From a virus, in IMG/VR virus record IMGVR_UViG_3300044798_000405, positions 1-23,854 of that record: DNA of 23,854 bases. One strand, 5' to 3'. Every line of letters starts with the position of its first letter. Within the stretch, counting starts at the first letter, position 1. The notes under the pieces are model-generated. The model ran no database searches. It saw only the letters and a list, made by a program, of their open reading frames with translations, and was not told the DNA's origin. This document shows, piece after piece, positions 2,184-22,223 of this stretch. The position numbers and the translations under genes are program-made.

Positions 2184-2651
2184 GTGGAAACAAAATATTT
2201 TAGTGAAGCGATAGAAGAAATATTAAATGCTATACAAACTAAATTAGAAAATGCGACTCAAGATGGAGAATTATTACAGGATGTAAAAGTAATAATTAGA
2301 GGAGATAAAACTTCAATTAAACCTGTTACCCCTGCTATCTGGATATTTCCCAGCCCAGCAACAATCCTGGAAGGTAGCCAACATACCATAATAGAGAGGT
2401 GGGAATTACCTATCCAAAATATAAGCGTAGTTTATAATACTAATACCGAGCAGGGGTTTAAAGATGCAAATGATGTTATAGCCAGAGCAAAAAGAATATT
2501 AATAGCAGACCGCACACTGGGTTTCGGGCATGGTAGTTTTATAGCTGATATTCACAGTAAATCTTTCGATTGTAATAACCCTGCTCTTGTTAATGGGAAT
2601 TTTTATTCAGCAATTTATACTTGTATAGTTAGTTTCTGTATAATGGAATGA
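2184..2651 (+). CDS. Tail terminator-like protein
   Basis: The protein has 155 residues and begins at GTG 2184, just after the previous TAA. An ATG at 2182 is in another frame and stops quickly. The upstream GGGGG is only a modest ribosome site, so translation probably depends on coupling. The N-terminal helix (AIEEILNAIQTKLENA), a central ERWELPIQNISVVYNT strand pair, a helix with ANDVIARAKRILIADRTLG, and a final strand pair follow the layout of siphophage tail terminator proteins, which cap the tail tube and join it to the neck. Its place directly before the tail tube gene fits. No catalytic motif is expected. The call rests on layout and order rather than strong identity. Confidence 0.6.
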   Translation: METKYFSEAIEEILNAIQTKLENATQDGELLQDVKVIIRGDKTSIKPVTPAIWIFPSPATILEGSQHTIIERWELPIQNISVVYNTNTEQGFKDANDVIARAKRILIADRTLGFGHGSFIADIHSKSFDCNNPALVNGNFYSAIYTCIVSFCIME

Positions 2652-2684: not shown

Positions 2685-3695
2685 ATGACAATTCCTCGCA
2701 GGTATTGTGGTTTTTGTGAAGAAGGGGTTTTCAACCCAGCAGTTGCACCTGAAGCTACATTTCATATTGATATAGCATCAGCTTCTCTCGATGTACCTTC
2801 TGACCCTAATTTACATTTTGAAGGTGGGATGAGTAGAGGTAGAAAGATAGTAAGACCTGGTTATTATGTCCCAGCAGGGAATGTTGTTTATGCTATTGAT
2901 ATCCGTTCGATTGGATATTTCTTGAAATGGGCATTGGGTTTATATAAATTTACTGATGGGGGAGTGGGAACTAATACTCATGAAATATATCCTTCAGAAG
3001 ATATAGTGTTACCTTCTTATACAGTTAGGTTAGGTAAGGATAATTTTGAGCATGTATTTAGAGGTTGTGTAATGAATGGATTAGAATTGAAGATAGAAGA
3101 TAATTTTATCTTGGGCACATTAGATAATATTGGAACTCGAGATACTAAAGCAGCCTTAAAAGAAATATCAGGATTATCTTTATTCGATGAAAACAATTTA
3201 ACTTTCATTGATGCTTCTTTAGCTTTAGGGAATGCAGTTAATTATAATTGCAAGATAAAAGGAATGACTATATCTATAACTAATGGAGCGAATGCAGCAG
3301 CGGGTAAAGGTATAGGCTCAAGATTCCCTTGTCGAATACCAGTAGGGAACAGAAATATAGACATCAAAGGCAATCTATGGTTTGAAGATTCCACCGAATA
3401 TGAAAAATTCTGGGGTGGTTCTAATGGAGTTAGTGTAAATGGAAGTACTACTGAAGCGATGGCAGTTACTATTGATTCAGGTGTAGATGGGAGTATAGAA
3501 CTGGAATTCCCTGCTTTAATGTATACTGATTTAAAAACTCCACCTTCAGGTAGAGGAGAAATTGTACAGGCTTTTAGTGGGATAGCTTTAATTGGAGATA
3601 TAACTCTTGCCGATGCACAAACCGAAATAGAAGCTGAAGTATTAGCTACTATTCAAAATAATAATGATGATATGGATGAAGATATAGTATCTTAG
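2685..3695 (+). CDS. Major tail tube protein
   Basis: The protein has 336 residues, with the strong site AAAGGAGTGAT ahead of the ATG. The sequence is beta-rich and glycine-rich, with the segments GRKIVRPGYYVPAGNVVYAI, a helix with GYFLKWALGLYK, HEIYPSEDIVLPSYTVRLGK, FRGCVMNGLELKIEDN and an acidic tail (NNNDDMDEDIVS). This is the usual plan of tail tube proteins of long-tailed phages: a beta-barrel that stacks in rings, with 'rGc.vn.lel' near the middle. Position between the terminator-like gene and the tail assembly chaperones is canonical. A hairpin follows the stop codon (3710..3754), as is common after highly expressed structural genes. Confidence 0.78.
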   Translation: MTIPRRYCGFCEEGVFNPAVAPEATFHIDIASASLDVPSDPNLHFEGGMSRGRKIVRPGYYVPAGNVVYAIDIRSIGYFLKWALGLYKFTDGGVGTNTHEIYPSEDIVLPSYTVRLGKDNFEHVFRGCVMNGLELKIEDNFILGTLDNIGTRDTKAALKEISGLSLFDENNLTFIDASLALGNAVNYNCKIKGMTISITNGANAAAGKGIGSRFPCRIPVGNRNIDIKGNLWFEDSTEYEKFWGGSNGVSVNGSTTEAMAVTIDSGVDGSIELEFPALMYTDLKTPPSGRGEIVQAFSGIALIGDITLADAQTEIEAEVLATIQNNNDDMDEDIVS

Positions 3696-3771: not shown

Positions 3772-4197
3772 ATGGAAAAGATATCAATTAAGGAATTAAT
3801 TCTTAAAGGAAAAGAATATAGAAAAGTAATTACAATTGAAGGATTTGGAGAAATAGAGATTAAACCATTGACTGAAGAACAATGGGCAACAATTAGTGCT
3901 ATGGTAATGAGATCAGCTAAAACTGAATTTACTCCAATGCTAAATAAAAAAGGGGAAATAGATAAAGATAAAACCAGAGAAACAATTAAATTTAGTATTG
4001 ATGTAGAATCAATTAATAAATCTAACTTCGACAAAAATATATTGACCTGTCTCTATGGAATAGTAGAAGAAGGATTAACCGAACAAGAATTAAAACAACT
4101 ATCTCCACCGGGGATAATTGAAAAGATTGCTAATGAAATATTTAAGATTAGTGGTATTGGAGAGGAGCAACTGAAAGAATTGCAATTTTTTCGCTAA
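3772..4197 (+). CDS. Tail assembly chaperone, short form (lambda gpG-like)
   Basis: The protein has 141 residues and starts after GGAAGGG. It lies between the tail tube and tape measure genes, where siphophages encode the tail assembly chaperone, and has the expected size. The sequence begins with a beta-rich domain (EYRKVITIEGFGEIEIKPL), then helices (TEEQWATISAMVM, NKSNFDKNILTCLYGIVEEGL) and PPGIIEKIANEIFKISGI near the end. I recognise no exact homologue; the call rests on position, size and the overlapping second frame immediately after it. It should bind the tape measure protein during tail assembly and be absent from the finished virion, as known for lambda gpG/gpGT. Confidence 0.72.
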   Translation: MEKISIKELILKGKEYRKVITIEGFGEIEIKPLTEEQWATISAMVMRSAKTEFTPMLNKKGEIDKDKTRETIKFSIDVESINKSNFDKNILTCLYGIVEEGLTEQELKQLSPPGIIEKIANEIFKISGIGEEQLKELQFFR

Positions 4198-4345
4198 AAA
4201 TGATGAAGGTCAAGAGATAATATCTTTTCATATATCCGGAATAAAGTTTGTAGATAGATTTCAAGATATGACTATCGCACAAAAATTATTTATTAAATTA
4301 GCTTATGAAGAATATAACAGAAGAGTACAAAAGGAGAAGAATTAA
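3772..4345 (+). CDS. Predicted frameshifted long chaperone (gpGT-like fusion)
   Basis: Just before the short form's stop, the 0 frame reads CAA TTT TTT CGC TAA (4183-4197). Reading one base further on (GCT at 4193) gives 50 more open codons ending in TAA at 4343-4345, which overlaps the tape measure ATG. That second frame has no ATG for its first ~27 codons and no ribosome site, so it needs a shift. The extension contains SFHISGIKFVDRFQ and IAQKLFIKLAYEEYNRR, plausible protein sequence. A +1 slip of tRNA-Phe from TTT to TTC gives a 190-residue fusion; a -2 slip would give the same frame with one more residue. Known gpG/gpGT systems support the idea; the shift direction is inference. Confidence 0.7.
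4183..4197 (+). promoter_or_regulatory. Candidate programmed frameshift site (T6-C before stop)
   Basis: Six T residues (4186-4191) followed by CGC and TAA form the slip site. tRNA-Phe with a GAA anticodon pairs better with TTC than TTT, and CGC is an uncommon Arg codon among the AGA-rich genes here, so a ribosome paused at CGC could slip +1. Most tail chaperone shifts are -1; phage Mu is known for -2. I see no clear downstream pseudoknot. Confidence 0.6.
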
Positions 4346-7011
4346 TGGCTTCTATAATGGAAATCATAATGCGAGCAATAGATCAAGTTTCTCCTGTTGT
4401 TAATAAAATACAATCGGAAACTGATAAAGCTAATGCTGCAATGCAAAAAGGTTGGACAACGACAGGAAAAAGTTTACAAGCAGTTGGTATTGCAACTACT
4501 GCTTTAGGTGCTGGAATAGAAATGTTAGCCAGAAGCAATGCTCCATTAGTAGAAATGACCGGAAGATTAGCTGATAATTTAGGGATAACTGATAAAGCAA
4601 TGAGAGATTTAGTTATTTCTACTTCTAATGTTACTTTACCTTTAGATGAAGTTCTTTCTCTTATGGAATTAGGAACAAAAGAGGGATTAAATAGTGCAGA
4701 AGCATTAAAGAAGTATGCTGAATTCTGGGATATGGTAGGAGATGCAACAGGAGAAAGTGCAATTGCTTTAGCTGATTCGGGAATTGCTTTAAAAGCTTTA
4801 GGAATTTCCGCAGGCGAAGAAGGACAAGCTTTATCTGCTTTTGGATTTATTCAAAAAAATACTACTATGCAGTTAAATGAATTCATTAGTATGGTGGGTA
4901 GATTAGGACCGCAAATGCGAGCAATGAATCTGGATATAAATGATGCTGCTGTAATAATGGGTATTCTACAACAAGAATTTGGTGAAACTGCCAGAGTATC
5001 AATAGCAGAGTTTAGAAGAGCTGTTACTGAATCAGGCGGGGATATGGAAAAATTAAAAACAACTTTGGGAATTACTTCTGATATGTGGGAAAAGTATACA
5101 GGAAAATTAAAAGAAAGTTCAACTGTAATAAAGGAAAATTCAGATAGACACGAAGCACTTGCCACCAATATGCAGAAATTACAACATTGGTTATCAGAAT
5201 TAAAATATGGATTTAGTGAAACTATTACTAAAGCAGCAGAATTTGCACCATTACTTACTGGATTAGGTTCAGCAATGACTCTATTTGGGACTCTAATGAA
5301 AACTCAATTATATGCTAATTTAATGTTATCTATCCAGGGAATACAAGCGATGGGAATAAGTGTATTGGGATTAGCAGCTAATTATGCTATGGCAGGGGTT
5401 GCTCTTGCTATTTGGGTTAAGGTCTATCAAGGAGTAGTCCAAGTAATAAAAGATGCGAAAGCAATTAGAGAAGCAGAAGCTGCATCAGTAATAGCTCAAG
5501 CTGAAGCCAATGATAAATTACAGAAAGCTTATAATTTAACTTCAGAAGAAATGATAAAAGTTAATCAAAATATGAAAGACCATAAACCTCTTCTTGATGG
5601 CATAAGAGAATCTACAGATACAGTTACTACCTCAACTACTAATCTTGGAACATCAGCAGGAGAAACAACGCCAAAAGTAGAAGGATTAGGAACTGCTATT
5701 GAAGGAGTAGGAATAAAAGCAGAAGGACTTCCAACTAAATTAGATGGGATAGGGGCAAGTGTTGATGATCTTGGTAGAAAAATTGATTCTGCAACAGGAC
5801 AATGGGCTGAATCAGAGGATACTTGGTTTGATAGAATAGATGCTGCTAATACTGCAATGTATGCATCGTTGGCAGAAGGAGAGAAGAAGGTAGCAGATAC
5901 ATTAAAAGAAACTGCAAATAAAGCAAAAGAAGTATTAGATACTTATGCCAATGCAATGGGTCCTATAAAAGAAAGGATAGAGGAGTTAACTCATACAGAA
6001 GAGCAATATGCGATAATACAATTAAATACTATCGATGCTTTAGATAAAAAAAGAAAGGCGACAGAGGATACCGTTATAGCATTGGAATTATCCAATGAAA
6101 AAGAAAAAGCAGCAATGGGAGATATAGCACTCTGGTATCAAGAAGAGATCGATGCGATGGTAGCGAAATTAAGAGAAAAAAGAGATGAGATAGAAAAAAC
6201 AATTAAGGCATTGGAGTTATCTCCAGAAGAAGAGAAAAAGAAATTAGCAGAAGTATCTTTAATTTATGAAGAAGAAATAGCAAAGATAATAAAGACATTA
6301 AAGGATAAGGAACTTGCTGTAATAAAAGATGCAAAACAGGTAGGATTAAGTGCTGAACAAGAAAAGATTTTAATAGCAAATATCACTTCTGCTTATGATG
6401 CACAGATAGCCAAAGTAAAAGCGGTAGCAACAGCCACTGAAGCCTCTGCATCAAGACAGGTTGCCGCAATAAATAAAATCGTTAACGCACAAGGGAAAGT
6501 TACAGGGGTTAAAATTACCTCTAGTGGAAAGACTACAGGAATAATATCAAATGAACCGATTACTGGAGAACTTAATACACAGTCTGCTGATTCTTATGAA
6601 GAGGCACAGGCTATTGTTGCAGCGAATCAAGCGAAAGTAACCACACCAGTATCTACGCCAAGTGCAGTTATAAATCCACCGACAGCAGGTAGTGGATATA
6701 TACAATCAGGAGATAAAATTATTACATTTGCAGAAGGGACTCCCCTTGTAACCAAATCAGGTTTAGTTATAGTTGATAAAGGTGAAGCGGTATTGACACC
6801 AGAGCAAAACAAAGCATATCAATCGGAAAAAAATCTTTCTTTATCTAATACTGAAAAAACTAATCAGATTTATCTAACTATTCAAGAAGGAGCATTTAAA
6901 ATAAGTGCTAACAAATTAGATGAAGGAACTATCAGGAACGCAGGTAAATTATTATTTGAAGAAATCTTTGACCAGTTTAGAGCTCATAATATTCAATTTG
7001 CGAAAGGATAA
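4345..7011 (+). CDS. Tape measure protein
   Basis: The protein has 888 residues; its ATG overlaps the stop of the frameshifted chaperone frame (TAATG). It begins with a helical region (IMRAIDQVSPVVNKIQ) typical of tape measure proteins. A hydrophobic stretch follows at about residues 300-375 (SVLGLAANYAMAGVALAIWV), as seen in tape measures that insert into the host membrane. A long charged coiled coil covers about 510-700. Within it, a 43-residue unit occurs three times, starting near residues 579, 622 and 665 (ALELSNEKEK, ALELSPEEEK, QVGLSAEQEK). The C-terminus has the common VIVDKGEAVLTPEQ motif. By the usual ~0.15 nm per residue, the tail would be about 130 nm. Very confident. Confidence 0.92.
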   Translation: MASIMEIIMRAIDQVSPVVNKIQSETDKANAAMQKGWTTTGKSLQAVGIATTALGAGIEMLARSNAPLVEMTGRLADNLGITDKAMRDLVISTSNVTLPLDEVLSLMELGTKEGLNSAEALKKYAEFWDMVGDATGESAIALADSGIALKALGISAGEEGQALSAFGFIQKNTTMQLNEFISMVGRLGPQMRAMNLDINDAAVIMGILQQEFGETARVSIAEFRRAVTESGGDMEKLKTTLGITSDMWEKYTGKLKESSTVIKENSDRHEALATNMQKLQHWLSELKYGFSETITKAAEFAPLLTGLGSAMTLFGTLMKTQLYANLMLSIQGIQAMGISVLGLAANYAMAGVALAIWVKVYQGVVQVIKDAKAIREAEAASVIAQAEANDKLQKAYNLTSEEMIKVNQNMKDHKPLLDGIRESTDTVTTSTTNLGTSAGETTPKVEGLGTAIEGVGIKAEGLPTKLDGIGASVDDLGRKIDSATGQWAESEDTWFDRIDAANTAMYASLAEGEKKVADTLKETANKAKEVLDTYANAMGPIKERIEELTHTEEQYAIIQLNTIDALDKKRKATEDTVIALELSNEKEKAAMGDIALWYQEEIDAMVAKLREKRDEIEKTIKALELSPEEEKKKLAEVSLIYEEEIAKIIKTLKDKELAVIKDAKQVGLSAEQEKILIANITSAYDAQIAKVKAVATATEASASRQVAAINKIVNAQGKVTGVKITSSGKTTGIISNEPITGELNTQSADSYEEAQAIVAANQAKVTTPVSTPSAVINPPTAGSGYIQSGDKIITFAEGTPLVTKSGLVIVDKGEAVLTPEQNKAYQSEKNLSLSNTEKTNQIYLTIQEGAFKISANKLDEGTIRNAGKLLFEEIFDQFRAHNIQFAKG

Positions 7012-11993: not shown

Positions 11994-12058
11994 ATGAGCA
12001 GAATAATGAAAGTGATATTAAGATAGAAGAAGAAGAACAAGAGGAAGGAGCAGACTAA
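11990..12058 (+). other. Short acidic overlapping reading frame between holin-like gene and endolysin
   Basis: In the -1 frame relative to the holin-like gene, codons from ATA 11990 run open to TAA 12056-12058, which overlaps the endolysin ATG (TAATG). The encoded tail is strongly acidic (IDEQNNESDIKIEEEEQEEG). The holin-like gene ends GGA AAA TAG, and tRNA-Lys could slip back one base on the A-run, adding this tail. Alternatively, a TTG at 11915 could start a separate ~47-residue product. The TAATG overlap is the same arrangement that joins other real genes here. Evidence is suggestive only; the GA-rich bases also serve as the endolysin ribosome site. Confidence 0.3.
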
Positions 12059-12492
12059 TGACAATAAAAAATCGAATGAAATGCCCTTGCAAGAAATGCA
12101 AAGATAAACCATATACTATCAATGAAAGATTAGAAGATTTATTGATTAAATTAGAAGAGAAATTAACGAAGGAATACGAATTGTTGACTATAAATAGTGG
12201 CAACCGATGCGAAGAAGAGAACGAAAGAGTTGGTGGAGATAAGAATTCACCACACCTAATAGGAGAAGGAGCGGACATAAAAGCGACAGGAATGACCTTG
12301 ATAGAATTAGCCAGAGTTTGTGTAGAAATAGGTTTTGATAGAATAGGAATTTATCCGAATCATATTCACGTGGACGTAATAATTCCAAAGCCATCTCATT
12401 TTTGGTATATCAAGAAATACGGCGGGAAATATATTTATTCGAGAAATATTACAAATCTCGATGAATTTTTAAAATATGTTAAATTAATATAA
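12058..12492 (+). CDS. Endolysin, M15 family (D,D- or L,D-peptidase)
   Basis: The protein has 144 residues; its ribosome site is GAGGAAGGAG at 12041-12050. It carries the M15 zinc peptidase signature: SGNRCEEENERVGG (47-60), then SPHLIGEGADI (64-74) and RIGIYPNHIHVDV (95-107). Likely zinc ligands are His66, Asp73 and His104, with Asp106 in the HVD motif. M15 enzymes cut peptide bonds in peptidoglycan cross-links or stems. There is no signal peptide, so it needs the neighbouring holin to reach the wall. An N-terminal CPCKKC (9-14) is an extra cysteine cluster that could bind metal. It has no separate wall-binding domain, as in many phages of diderm hosts. Confidence 0.88.
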   Translation: MTIKNRMKCPCKKCKDKPYTINERLEDLLIKLEEKLTKEYELLTINSGNRCEEENERVGGDKNSPHLIGEGADIKATGMTLIELARVCVEIGFDRIGIYPNHIHVDVIIPKPSHFWYIKKYGGKYIYSRNITNLDEFLKYVKLI

Positions 12493-15504: not shown

Positions 15505-15801
15505 ATGCCTAATATAAAAGGTATATCCGACATAAATGGCAATATAAGCATAACTGGTTTAGACAATACTAAACACGATTTACTACGGGCTGATTTACTA
15601 AAATCAATTGAGGATAAGGATAAAGGTTTAGCTATTAAAACTAAACCAGATTATGATGTCTATACCCATTGCTATGAAGATTTGAAAATGAAGAATACCA
15701 AGAGAACTGCTGTAATGGTTTGTAATAAGGGAATAATGCCACAAAAAGAATGGTGGATTAATAGAGATACCACTGGAAAAGAGGTGGTAAAAGTTGGCTA
15801 A
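15505..15801 (+). CDS. Small protein of unknown function before the giant fibre
   Basis: The protein has 98 residues from ATG 15505, which follows GAGGAG (15495-15500). An ATG at 15493 would lie within that site and is not preferred. The protein is soluble and charged, with the segments NIKGISDINGNISITG, KHDLLRADLLKSIEDKDKG, DYDVYTHCYEDLKMKNTKRT and PQKEWWINRDTTG. No motif or membrane segment is visible. It overlaps the fibre gene's TTG start by 8 bases, so the two are translationally coupled. It could be a fibre chaperone or a small structural part; I do not recognise a family. Confidence 0.5.
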   Translation: MPNIKGISDINGNISITGLDNTKHDLLRADLLKSIEDKDKGLAIKTKPDYDVYTHCYEDLKMKNTKRTAVMVCNKGIMPQKEWWINRDTTGKEVVKVG

Positions 15802-18800
15802 TTTATTCACAGATGGTTTTGAAAGTGGAAATTTAACAGCGTGGGATAGTGCAAATATTGATACAGATGATTTATCGGCTCACGCTGATGCTGCTTTACA
15901 TGGAAGTTATGGTTTAAAAGCTGTTATAGACGATACCACAGAGATAAATGTCATTGAAATCAATTCTTTTTCTGCCGAAACAAGGTTCAGGTGCAGATTC
16001 TATTTTGACCCCAATGGAATCAGTATGCCTGTCAATGGTGAAATAAGCATTTTAAGGACATTTAATGCTGCATGGTCTGCGGCTTTGATTTTAAATTTAA
16101 AATATAGCGATAGCAAATATCAGATTACTTTTAATGATAATGCAGATGGCGGGTGGGACGCTTTTTCACAGGTAGATATAACTGATGCACCTCATTGCCT
16201 TGAGGTGGATTGGCAAGCATCAAGTGGTGCGGGAGCAGATAACGGTTTCCTTAAATACTGGATAGATGGGGTAAGTGGTGGAAATGACAAACTAACAGTA
16301 GATAATGATACTGAAGTAATAGGAGTTGTTCAACTTGGAGCTTGTAGTATATCAGCTACATCAGCAGGAACTCTCTTTTTTGATGACTTTGCAAGTAATA
16401 ATGATGGGACTCCCATCGGACTAACTTTCGATGTAATATCTGCTTCTTCTATTTATTCTCTACAAACTAATTTATCTGGAGCATTAGACAAAGGTAAAAT
16501 AGAATTAGGAACTTCAATTCACTCCTTATCTTCTTTAATCGAAGGAACATTATTAGCAACCGTAGGCGGGGTAATTTATGATGCGACTTCTTCTTATCTA
16601 ATCACAACCGAAATTTCAAGTATTATCTTAAAAGGTAAAACGGAAACGGGGACTACTACTATTTCTATCTCAACTTTTGTTATCGGGGAAATAAACAAAG
16701 GCAAAATAGAAACTGCTTCTCAAATATGCGATATAAAAACTTTACTTTCTGGAACTTTATTGAATACTAATTCGATACATGCAACTGCTATATTTAATCT
16801 GCAAACTTCTGTTATTGGTGGGAAAGAAATTATAACTGCTATTGATGTAGGTAGTATGGCTACTGCAAGGACTTATAATTCCGATTATGCTTATACTTAT
16901 GTAAATAGAGACAATCCCAGTAATGAAAACGGGACAATAACTTCAATAGAAATTTATGCTGTTTCAGATTTGACTGAGGTTTATGTGGCTACTTTTTCCG
17001 CAAGCCTAAATAATCTTACTGCTCGTAATAGTGTATTTATTGGTAATGTAACTGCTGGTTCTAAGCAAATCTTTATGGTTGATGCAAATAACGACCCAAT
17101 TTCTCTTGATGTAGAGATAGGAGATTGTATCGGGATATTTTATGCTTCAGGTTCTATATGGAGAGGAAAAAATACATTTATCGGATTGTGGACTAAAACT
17201 GGTAATCAAACTTCTTGTATAGATACTACTTTTGGCGAATGGGCTGAGATGACAGTAAGTCTTTATGGCACAGGGGAAAATATAGTAATTGGAAATGCGA
17301 TATCAAAGGGAATAATAGAATTAGGAACTTCTACATATAATTTAAATACTTCTATAACTGGTGTATTAACAAGTGGAACGGTAAAGAATGCTTCTTCAAT
17401 ATTTAATTTGCAGACTTCAATATTAGGAAATTTAGGTAAAGGTAAAATAGAAGAAGGTCTAACCTCATACCAATTAACTGCAGATATAACCGGGGAAATT
17501 TCTAAAGGAAAAATTGAATTAGTTTCTTCTATTTATTCTTTGTCAACTTCTATCACAGGAATATTATTAAAGGGAAAATCTGAAACTGCTACTATAATTA
17601 TTAATCTAACTTCTAAAATAATAGGGGAAATAGGAGCGGGGAAAATAGAAACTGCTACTTCTATTATCGAAACAACCTCTGCAATAACAGGAATAATCTC
17701 TAAAGGGAAATCAGAAGAAGCAACCACAATTTATACTATAAAGACTTTATTATCGGGGAATATAGCAAAAGGAAAAATAGAAACTGCAGTCACCGGATAT
17801 AATTTATCTACTCAATTATCCGGATTATTAACCAAAGGGATTATAGAAAATATTTCTTTAATTGTCAATTTAGAAACTTCCATAATTGGAATATTATTAA
17901 GAGGGAAAATAGAAGAGGCCACCTCTATCTATACTTTAGAAACGAGTATAGAGGGGATCATAGCCAAAGGGAAGATAGAACAGGCAGGCAGTATTTATTC
18001 TTTATCTACGCAAATAATCGGAAACATAGCCATAGGCGGGATAGAAATATCTTCTACTATAATATCTATATCTACTTTAATTGAAGGGAATATAGATTAT
18101 GGAAAGATAGAAGAAGTGATCTCTATATATTCCATTGTTGTTGAAATATCTGGTATTTTGAGTAAAGGTAAAACCGAGCAGGTAACTACCAATTATAATA
18201 TTATAAGTCAAGTATTGGGATTAATAAATAAAGGGACTATAGAGCAGGCAACCTGTATTTCATCCTTATCTACTTTAATAATAGGAGCAATAGCCAAAGG
18301 AAAAACAGAAGAGGCTACAACAGAGTACCAATTGGTTACTCAAATATCAGGAGAAATTAATCACGGAATTACTGAATTAGGAACTCTAATTTCTAATTCC
18401 TCAACGAATATAATAGGAATACTTTCCAAAGGAAAGATAGAAGAAATTACTTCATCTTATTTATTGACTACCCTTCTTTCCGGTTTAATAAATAGAGGGG
18501 AAATAGAGAACGGAGTTTCTTTAATTTCTATTTATACCTTAATAACTGGTAATTTAGTTTGGGGAGCAATAAAACAAGGCACATCTGAATATGGAATAGA
18601 AACTTCTGTTATTGGAATAATAACCAGAGGGGAAATATCCGAAGGCATTACTACTATAAATTTAAGTACGATAATAAATGGAATAATAGAAAAAGGTATA
18701 ACTGAATTAGCGAATACGATTTATAATCCCTTAACAAGTATAACTGGAGTTTTGTTAAGAGGAAAACCAGAAGAGACCTCTACTGAAATTAACATAGAAA

Positions 18801-19546
18801 CAGAAGTTTCAGGAGAGTTAGGATATGGTAGGATAGAAACTGCTACTATGGATGTTGATATTACAACCTTAATCACGGGAGCAGTAGAAAGCGGAGCGAT
18901 AAAGGAAGGCCTAACTGCTTTTATCATGACCACCTTTGTAACTGGAGATATAAACAAAGGGATAGCAGAAGGTGCAACCACCGAAATAAATATTACATCT
19001 CTTATTTTGGGGGAGATATCAAGAGGCGGGACAAAAGAAGCGATCATTACTATTACTTTAAATACTTCTTTAACCGGTTTAATATCAAGAGGTAAGACAG
19101 AACAGGCGGCAACCGAGTACCTTTTGGGAACGCAAATAATCGGAGAAATAAGCAGAGGTAAAATAGAACAGGCGACAGCAGAATATTTAATCTCTACTTT
19201 AATAACAGGAACTTTAATACGATTTAGAGAAGTGGCTTCTTCTTTTATTATAGAAACCAGAATAATAGGAAACATAGAATATGGAAAGATGAAAGAAGTA
19301 TATTCTATTATAGGAATAGAAACTAAACTGGAAGGAAATATACAAAAAGGGAAAATAGAAGAAGCGAGTAGTCAATTTATAATACAAACTGATATCACAG
19401 GAGTTATTACAAAATTTGAAATTGTTAATGCTTCTTGTATAATAGAAATTGAAACTAATATAAACGGAACGATACATAGATTCTTTTTCTCCCAGGCGAC
19501 TTTAGATATTATCAGAAATGAGAGCATATTAGATATTGAAAGATGA
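15794..19546 (+). CDS. Giant tail fibre/adhesin with 22-residue solenoid repeats
   Basis: The protein has 1250 residues and starts at TTG 15794 with GAGGTGG at 15781-15787. Residues ~1-207 look like a concanavalin/LamG-type beta-sandwich (LFTDGFESGNLTAW, FRCRFYFDPNG, GTLFFDDFASNNDGTPIG), a class that often binds sugars. Residues ~208-348 hold about six irregular repeats, ~350-497 a second beta-sandwich (TSIEIYAVSDLTEVYVATFS, GIFYASGSIWRGKNTFIG), and ~506-1229 33 consecutive repeats of the form GKIE.ATS.Y.L.T.I.G.I.K. The last ~21 residues form a cap. Strict 22-residue spacing suits a beta-solenoid shaft. It probably binds the host surface. There is no signal peptide, so it is more likely virion-bound than secreted. 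Confidence 0.7.
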   Translation: MANLFTDGFESGNLTAWDSANIDTDDLSAHADAALHGSYGLKAVIDDTTEINVIEINSFSAETRFRCRFYFDPNGISMPVNGEISILRTFNAAWSAALILNLKYSDSKYQITFNDNADGGWDAFSQVDITDAPHCLEVDWQASSGAGADNGFLKYWIDGVSGGNDKLTVDNDTEVIGVVQLGACSISATSAGTLFFDDFASNNDGTPIGLTFDVISASSIYSLQTNLSGALDKGKIELGTSIHSLSSLIEGTLLATVGGVIYDATSSYLITTEISSIILKGKTETGTTTISISTFVIGEINKGKIETASQICDIKTLLSGTLLNTNSIHATAIFNLQTSVIGGKEIITAIDVGSMATARTYNSDYAYTYVNRDNPSNENGTITSIEIYAVSDLTEVYVATFSASLNNLTARNSVFIGNVTAGSKQIFMVDANNDPISLDVEIGDCIGIFYASGSIWRGKNTFIGLWTKTGNQTSCIDTTFGEWAEMTVSLYGTGENIVIGNAISKGIIELGTSTYNLNTSITGVLTSGTVKNASSIFNLQTSILGNLGKGKIEEGLTSYQLTADITGEISKGKIELVSSIYSLSTSITGILLKGKSETATIIINLTSKIIGEIGAGKIETATSIIETTSAITGIISKGKSEEATTIYTIKTLLSGNIAKGKIETAVTGYNLSTQLSGLLTKGIIENISLIVNLETSIIGILLRGKIEEATSIYTLETSIEGIIAKGKIEQAGSIYSLSTQIIGNIAIGGIEISSTIISISTLIEGNIDYGKIEEVISIYSIVVEISGILSKGKTEQVTTNYNIISQVLGLINKGTIEQATCISSLSTLIIGAIAKGKTEEATTEYQLVTQISGEINHGITELGTLISNSSTNIIGILSKGKIEEITSSYLLTTLLSGLINRGEIENGVSLISIYTLITGNLVWGAIKQGTSEYGIETSVIGIITRGEISEGITTINLSTIINGIIEKGITELANTIYNPLTSITGVLLRGKPEETSTEINIETEVSGELGYGRIETATMDVDITTLITGAVESGAIKEGLTAFIMTTFVTGDINKGIAEGATTEINITSLILGEISRGGTKEAIITITLNTSLTGLISRGKTEQAATEYLLGTQIIGEISRGKIEQATAEYLISTLITGTLIRFREVASSFIIETRIIGNIEYGKMKEVYSIIGIETKLEGNIQKGKIEEASSQFIIQTDITGVITKFEIVNASCIIEIETNINGTIHRFFFSQATLDIIRNESILDIER
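16427..16837 (+). repeat. First block of ~22-residue coding repeats (irregular)
   Basis: About six degenerate units of the fibre repeat encode segments such as GKIELGTSIHSLSSLIEG, GKTETGTTTISISTFVIG and GKIETASQICDIKTLLSG, with less regular spacing than the main block. They sit between the N-terminal beta-sandwich and the second globular domain. The repeats are recognisable in protein but not as identical DNA. Confidence 0.65.
17309..19480 (+). repeat. Main block of 33 consecutive 66-base coding repeats
   Basis: From GGA 17309 to 19480 the frame divides into 33 units. All are 22 residues except unit 30, which is 20 (FREVASSFIIETRIIGNIEY); 33 x 66 minus 6 equals the 2172 bases present. Almost every unit begins with Gly and carries E at about position 4, a small-residue pair near 6-7, alternating hydrophobics, and a Gly at about 18. 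DNA copies are well diverged, so the array is old and selected at protein level. Confidence 0.8.
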
Positions 19547-21024: not shown

Positions 21025-21327
21025 ATGGAAGAAATAAAAACTACGATTAAGAAAATGTTTTGGGATGATTTAAGGGGATACATAAAGGCAAAATGTATTT
21101 CGGATTTCGATAATTTAAGAAGTTATTTTCTGGGATATTTGCACGGATTACTGAAGGCAAGAATGATAACTGAAGAAGAGCAAAGCAAGATGGAAAATAG
21201 ATTGATTGGAATAATAGATTATGAAAAAGAAAAGGCAAAAAAGTTTACCCCTGAATTGACATCGAATCAGGAAGACCTTATCAGAGATCTGGTTTATCAT
21301 GATAGATTATGCGAAGGGAATAAGTAA
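21025..21327 (+). CDS. Helical phage protein, unknown function
   Basis: The protein has 100 residues, with AAAGGGAG before the ATG. It is mostly helical and charged: EEIKTTIKKMFWDDLRGYIK, DFDNLRSYFLGYLHGLLKAR, MITEEEQSKMENRLIGIID. This resembles small early phage proteins that have no assigned role. Its stop overlaps the start of the PP-loop enzyme (TAATG), so the two are translationally coupled and may act together. Confidence 0.6.
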   Translation: MEEIKTTIKKMFWDDLRGYIKAKCISDFDNLRSYFLGYLHGLLKARMITEEEQSKMENRLIGIIDYEKEKAKKFTPELTSNQEDLIRDLVYHDRLCEGNK

Positions 21328-22223
21328 TGGAAATATGGGAACTTAAACAAAAGCAATCTTTACCATTAGAAGCCAAAGTAAAATTATCATTAGATAGGAT
21401 TAGAAAATGGTATGAATACTGGGATGGTAATGTCTATGTAGCTTTTTCTGGTGGTAAAGACAGCACTATATTATTACATCTTGTAAGAAATTTATATCCT
21501 AAAGTTCCTGCTGTATTTGTTAATACAGGTTTGGAATATCCCGAAATAGTTAAGTTTGTTAAGACGATAGATAATGTAACTTGGCTCAAACCTAAAAGGA
21601 ACTTTAAGGAAGTTATAGAGAAATATGGTTATCCGGTAGTGAGCAAAGAAGTAGCAAAACAGATTCATGAAATTAGAAATACAAAATCAAATAAGTTAAG
21701 GGATAAAAGACTTTATGGTATTGGTAAAAAGACTGGGAGATTATCCGATAAGTGGAAATTCTTAATTGATGCACCATTCAAAATATCAGATTATTGTTGT
21801 GATGTGATGAAAAAAAGACCTTTTAAAATATATGAAAAGGGAACAGGGAACAAACCAATTATCGGAATGATGGCAAGTGATTCAAGGGGTAGGTTAAGAG
21901 TATATATAAAGAATGGCGGTTGTAATGCTTTTAACACTACCCGGCCTATGTCAAATCCGTTAATGGTATGGCTTGAAAAAGATATCTGGGAATACATTAA
22001 GAAATACTCTATCCCCTATTCAAGTATCTATGATATGGGATATCGCAGGACTGGTTGTATGTTCTGTATGTTCGGGGTGCATTTAGAGAAGAAGCCAAAT
22101 AGGTTTCAACTTATGGAACATACACATCCAAAACTGTACAGTTATTGTATGAATAAGTTGGGTTGCAAAGAAATATTGGATTATATTGGAGTGGCAAGGA
22201 AGATACCAGAAAGTTTATTTTAG
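21327..22223 (+). CDS. PP-loop ATP pyrophosphatase, PAPS reductase-like
   Basis: The protein has 298 residues. It has the PP-loop SGGKDS at residues 41-46, then VFVNTGLEYPEI, both typical of the PAPS reductase/CysH superfamily, whose members activate a substrate with ATP or bind PAPS. Further phage-type marks are SDYCCDVMKKRP (Cys157/158), GGCNAF (Cys199) and RTGCMFCMFG (Cys244, Cys247). These cysteines could hold an iron-sulfur cluster or zinc. Such phage proteins are often annotated as phosphoadenosine phosphosulfate reductases but may act in base or tRNA sulfur chemistry instead. No other sulfur or DNA-modification gene lies in the window. Family call is strong; the substrate is unknown. 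Confidence 0.88.
   Translation: MEIWELKQKQSLPLEAKVKLSLDRIRKWYEYWDGNVYVAFSGGKDSTILLHLVRNLYPKVPAVFVNTGLEYPEIVKFVKTIDNVTWLKPKRNFKEVIEKYGYPVVSKEVAKQIHEIRNTKSNKLRDKRLYGIGKKTGRLSDKWKFLIDAPFKISDYCCDVMKKRPFKIYEKGTGNKPIIGMMASDSRGRLRVYIKNGGCNAFNTTRPMSNPLMVWLEKDIWEYIKKYSIPYSSIYDMGYRRTGCMFCMFGVHLEKKPNRFQLMEHTHPKLYSYCMNKLGCKEILDYIGVARKIPESLF

Follow-up and report, generated by a model that had tools for sequence, protein, structure and literature searches.

Ribosomes that translate the tail chaperone gene of the virus analyzed here most probably skip one base at a conserved UUU-C, and we put the probability that this is a +1 recoding signal, as suggested by comparison with related sequences, at about 0.87. 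The window, that is the whole stretch of DNA analyzed, is the IMG/VR virus record IMGVR_UViG_3300044798_000405 (23,854 nt, positions 1 to 23,854). Its tail module is arranged in the order neck/terminator pair, tail tube, ORF1, ORF2 in the +1 frame and tape measure, with the following features:

2184..2651, + strand: probable tail terminator (PHROG 4204, E=0.0018, a weak match)
2685..3695, + strand: tail tube (major tail) protein, upstream of ORF1 (PHROG 290, E=2.4e-20)
3772..4197, + strand: ORF1 in the zero frame, 141 aa, putative G-like tail assembly chaperone (PHROG 14268, E=4.5e-7)
4175..4197, + strand: 23-nt overlap with both frames open (the +1 frame is closed by TGA 4172-4174, frame 0 by TAA 4195-4197)
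4186..4194, + strand: predicted shift site UUU_UUU_CGC (TTTTTTCG invariant in 10 relatives, TTT_C in 8 outgroup viruses)
4193..4345, + strand: ORF2, extension in the +1 frame that would add 50 aa beyond the shift and form the T-like part of the predicted fusion, kept in relatives
4345..7011, + strand: tape measure protein, 888 aa (assigned by position; matches the tape measure of PhiCh1 at 25%, E=2e-6)

The order of the genes and their matches to known families suggest that ORF1 and ORF2 form a G/GT-type pair of tail chaperones: they are flanked by tail tube and tape measure genes, a chaperone family is matched, and the second frame is constrained and lacks a conserved start. Relatives of the tail tube protein are annotated as such in MSTV1 and vir075, and its best match lies in Drs3. 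ORF1 is 39-81% identical to its relatives and matches PhiF3 with E=1e-3. Structure prediction for ORF1 was unusable (pLDDT 48), and a sequence search of the PDB gave no match.

Within the overlap frame 0 reads AAA GAA TTG CAA TTT TTT CGC TAA, with CAA at 4183-4185, TTT TTT at 4186-4191, CGC at 4192-4194 and TAA at 4195-4197, exactly the junction given in the original prediction. The +1 frame is open from 4175 up to TAA 4343-4345, the last base of which is the A of the tape measure ATG at 4345, so that the overlap of the second stop with the tape measure start likewise holds. Any shift must fall inside the 23 nucleotides 4175..4197. ORF2 contains a single ATG, GTG or TTG, namely the ATG of codon 26 (about 4268), and starting there would lose the conserved first half of the segment. 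Among the 7,206 codons of the window, TTT TTT C occurs in frame once, at this very place, as does TTT CGY, and CGC is the rarest sense codon (5 of 7,206, 0.7 per 1000); TTT accounts for 77% of the phenylalanine codons. No stable RNA structure is predicted downstream (four relatives gave z-scores of 0.3 to 1.6), which matches the lack of an evident stimulatory signal at other UUU_CGN sites (PMC5009743). An Rfam search returned a chance-level match only (ylbH, E=0.92).

Near relatives were compared as ten distinct IMG/VR sequences (the window, L014, L015, L008, L017, L020, L022, L023, L059 and L061). All ten have TTT TTT CGY in frame 0 and ORF2 in the +1 frame, as the original prediction had it for the window; the T-run, which it proposed to compare in relatives, is invariant. 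Eight bases, TTTTTTCG, do not vary at all, both phenylalanine codons are always spelled TTT, and the A-site codon that follows is CGC or CGT in every family member. The codon 5' of the run is CAA, CAG, GAC or AGC, and the frame-0 stop lies one to three codons past the second TTT at a distance that differs among the ten, so that the fixed element is neither the codon before the run nor a stop next to it. ORF2 itself is 48-76% identical to its relatives. In a set of eight sequences third-position variability changes from frame 0 to the +1 frame at nucleotide +9 relative to the run's first T (2-log-unit interval +4 to +11); all ten sequences give the same optimum with a wider interval, and leaving the switch out of the model costs 53-79 log units. 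These patterns argue that ORF2 encodes a stretch of protein under constraint, which is connected to ORF1 at the T-run.

More distant homologues were reached by tblastn, which led to Methanobacterium virus PhiF3 and halovirus HSTV-2 and from these to Drs3, vir075 and further haloviruses, and via the tail tube protein, which led to MSTV1. The ORF1 profile matches the methanogen-virus set with E=3.6e-15 (98.5%) and the ORF2 profile the +1 extensions of these viruses with E=1.4e-8 (95.5%); matches to the halovirus set are weaker (E=1.9e-5, 77.5% for ORF1; E=4.7e-5, 68% for ORF2). The junctions read CAA TTT CAT in PhiF3, AAA TTT CCT in Drs3, GAC TTT CCT in vir075, GAA TTT CGT in MSTV1 and HRTV-25, TCC TTT CGC in HSTV-2 and AAG TTT CGC in HF2, HJTV-2, HRTV-14 and HRTV-27, and TTT_C is the sole element common to every one of them. 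In-frame TTT_C falls within the overlap and in one alignment column in 17 of 17 homologous chaperones, a shared column that represents consistency and not independent proof because the alignment was built on a shift at TTTC. The chance of an in-frame TTT_C in the overlap is 0.6-11% for each of eight outgroup records, which are related to each other, so that these figures are not independent and their product is not a p-value. As the A-site codon is CCU or CAU instead of CGN in three of the four methanogen viruses, the C after UUU appears to be the fixed part of the site and CGN its common form.

Annotation of the second chaperone half differs between these viruses. In the methanogen viruses the +1-frame segment lies at L011:4374-4544 (PhiF3), L024:1937-2086 (Drs3), L025:1931-2083 (vir075) and L026:4722-4955 (MSTV1); it carries no CDS in the first three, whereas MSTV1 lists it as a hypothetical protein of its own. 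In HF2 a CDS is assigned to ORF2 by itself, and the GenBank entries of the chaperone genes of HRTV-14, HRTV-25, HRTV-27 and HJTV-2 (L027-L030) bear the note 'putative programmed translational -2 frameshift'; at the TTT_CGY site of these four, however, re-pairing is clean at +1 and mismatched twice at -2. Intermediate relatives of the PhiF3 and Drs3 chaperones were not found in viral contigs, and no such chaperone pair was seen just 5' of the related tape measure gene of PhiCh1. The phages psiM2 and psiM100 were left out of the comparison, because what lies ahead of their tape measure genes looks different, with the -1 frame open. In Gordonia phages with a related tail tube protein the second ORF is in the -1 frame; the +1 site hence does not generally track the tail tube protein.

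A second frame in this position can be entered by a shift of either +1 or -2, and the homologues largely settle the matter, with +1 clearly favored. Within the T6 family both re-pairings are perfect, UUU to UUC at +1 and UUU to UUU two bases back at -2, and the slip of tRNA-Phe from TTT to TTC was rightly called favorable in the original prediction: every one of the 18 sequences tested allows it at the homologous UUU, and TTT_C is kept in the homologues. The -2 alternative, in which the P-site tRNA moves back two bases on UUU_UUU and reads UUC GCU to give ..QFFFAK.., with the same net effect as in phage Mu, also draws on the invariance of T6 in the ten sequences and on the '-2' notes attached to halovirus homologues in GenBank. 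Left open in the original prediction, it has the pairing it needs in the T6 family, but re-pairing at -2 is confined to that family and not available in all homologues, as would be expected for a Mu-type shift: two of three positions mismatch at the single UUU of PhiF3, Drs3, vir075, MSTV1, HSTV-2, HF2 and HRTV-14/25/27. It is because the single UUU of the methanogen-virus and halovirus relatives cannot re-pair at -2 that +1 is favored. Visual inspection also shows a gap-free alignment of the +1 fusion at the junction (KELQFF-AKNDEG in the window, KEIEKF-LKTDEG in Drs3, SELDQF-IRSDDG in PhiF3), whereas a -2 fusion would add one phenylalanine there and break this alignment. The Mu site region, moreover, is without a U run, and we regard a -2 shift as improbable. 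The site has the features of the UUU_CGN class of +1 sites, namely a P-site UUU followed by a C that allows re-pairing to UUC, a rare CGN codon in the A site and no strong structure. Further observations count against +1. The CGC after the site is a sense codon, whereas in textbook bacterial +1 sites the zero-frame codon after the site is a stop, and the retention of T6 as TTT TTT in all ten sequences could hint that the run itself matters.

Other ways of connecting the two frames, or of leaving them apart, fare worse. Transcriptional slippage, in which RNA polymerase would add or drop bases on T6 and so produce mRNAs with both ORFs in one frame, would suit a family-invariant run at the junction; T6 is, however, short for efficient slippage, and homologues with a single TTT keep the arrangement despite having no run to slip on, which makes this reading very unlikely. 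That ORF2 is a separate small protein, made from the ATG at codon 26, from a non-standard start or by re-initiation, would agree with the presence of this ATG in seven of the ten family members and with the separate CDS annotated in HF2, but the conserved segment DEGQxII..GI.F sits 5' of the ATG and conservation changes frame at the T-run itself. In addition, L008 has no ATG, GTG or TTG in ORF2 codons 1-50, the sole candidate in L015 is a TTG at codon 36, and no start stands at a common position across the family or the outgroups, which bears out the original statement that ORF2 lacks a usable start and renders a separate protein highly improbable. A -1 shift on U6C as in SPP1 was rejected, since in every near relative the -1 frame runs for only a few residues before it closes, and it is not conserved. 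The probability that an error or a decayed gene accounts for the two frames, with no fusion at all, is negligible. The window does stem from a metagenomic assembly and the run is a short homopolymer, but the same T-run and the same +1 arrangement recur in ten distinct sequences from many metagenomes, and a separate contig of the same virus (IMG/VR 3300044799_000778) has an identical T-run and aligns over 6,423 nt with three mismatches and not a single gap, so that a sequencing error is excluded; against decay, both ORFs are under constraint at the protein level.

For the favored +1 shift we propose that most ribosomes end at TAA 4195 and release the 141-aa chaperone. A minority would stall while peptidyl-tRNA-Phe occupies UUU 4189-4191 in their P site and the A site holds the very rare CGC (4192-4194); the tRNA would slip by +1 from UUU 4189-4191 to UUC 4190-4192 and translation would resume at GCU, yielding a 190-aa fusion (..LQFF-AKNDEGQ..) that ends at 4345. 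If the pair works like lambda gpG/gpGT, the short form may coat the tape measure and the long form recruit tail tube subunits. This scheme draws on comparison of sequences for the frames, the site, its conservation and the lack of -2 re-pairing in the homologues; we infer the direction of the shift in the window virus itself, the role of CGC in pausing, the efficiency and the function as chaperones.

The nearest relatives of the window's tail tube protein, and of the portal and capsid proteins encoded on a sister contig, are those of methanogen viruses, so that a homologous head and tail module is shared with methanogen tailed viruses (the head proteins being taken from the sister contig, not from the window). 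A host genome or provirus search of genome contigs gave no match. Although the tail is nearest to methanogen viruses, the window encodes an M15 peptidase (12058-12492; Pfam PF08291, E=3.8e-13), a type of enzyme that commonly acts on peptidoglycan, and RecT- and DnaD-like genes are present on the sister contig; these genes would be compatible with a bacterial host. A head morphogenesis protein encoded on the sister contig IMGVR_UViG_3300031586_000007 (L035:8500-10425, minus strand) seems to carry an intein splicing domain at residues 304-611 (Pfam PF14890, E=2.1e-10). Further genes of the window comprise a small C2H2-like zinc-finger protein between the partial first gene and the neck genes (602-868, below the Pfam cut-off), a PAPS-reductase-like gene (21327-22223; Pfam PF01507, E=3.7e-25) and a 1,250-aa ORF (15794-19546), probably for a fiber-like protein, the second part of which is a long series of degenerate repeats with a unit resembling 'GKIE.ATS.Y.L.T.I.G.I'.

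The comparison appears to extend the +1 site to the uncultured family of the window and to methanogen viruses in which ORF2 is mostly unannotated, and it speaks against the '-2' notes that several halovirus records in GenBank carry. Published annotations of archaeal tailed-virus chaperones conflict, giving +1 or -2, and the natural series of UUUUUU in the window family and a single UUU elsewhere argues for +1 and names the exact nucleotides; it also supplies the missing second chaperone half in several methanogen viruses. We consider it slightly better than an even bet that one ancestral +1 site, composed of UUU_C and a slow codon starting with C (mostly CGN), was inherited by the clade of chaperones from methanogen viruses, haloarchaeal myoviruses and uncultured viruses. 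If so, it would be a deeply conserved +1 signal in prokaryotic viruses that has converged on the eukaryotic UUU_CGN class; it would also be a candidate for the first experimentally proven +1 programmed frameshift in archaea. The choice between +1 and -2 can now be put to the test with a short reporter in genetically tractable archaea.

The original prediction had expected a less common mechanism with either outcome. This rarity was somewhat overstated, as +1 shifting at TTT-CGC has already been proposed for haloarchaeal chaperones: in HSTV-2 it was called very likely (PMC5009743), and for HF1-like haloviruses the conserved TTT-CGC was noted and +1 suggested, with the eukaryotic motif as a parallel (PMC7230728). 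A 2021 review of archaeal recoding lists the +1 case as apparent only (PMC8211752), and the open-licence papers searched contained no report of the site in methanogen viruses. The Hafunaviridae (HSTV-2 and the HF1/HF2 group) resemble the window in that a pair of ORFs precedes the tape measure, the second of them lies in the +1 frame and TTT-CGC occurs near the end of ORF1; unlike the window, they have a single TTT after AAG, TCC or GAA, GC-rich genomes, contractile tails and a long, variable ORF2 tail, and some records annotate -2. In the methanogen viruses (Anaerodiviridae Drs3 and PhiF3; vir075; MSTV1) ORF1 and ORF2 are homologous to those of the window, TTT_C is in the same place and the overlap is short, but the TTT is single, the A-site codon is CCT, CAT or CGT and no frameshift is annotated.

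Outside this group, lambda G/GT and SPP1 gp17.5/17.5* share the genetic position and the presumed role, and SPP1 even has UUUUUUC at its site (PMC6316719). Both of them shift by -1, however, whereas the run of the window is phased TTT_TTT_C and its -1 frame ends after a few non-conserved residues. In the gp41 region of phage Mu the second frame is equivalent to +1/-2 as in the window, but Mu shifts by -2 (PMC3498833) and has no UUU_C. Mechanistic parallels are found in influenza A PA-X, where +1 shifting at UUU_CGN was proven by mass spectrometry, and in plant amalgavirus: both share with the window UUU_CGN, a P-site slip of tRNA-Phe from UUU to UUC, as predicted for the window, and the lack of an evident downstream stimulator (PMC3498833, PMC5052127). 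As these are eukaryotic RNA viruses with unrelated proteins, the likeness is convergent.
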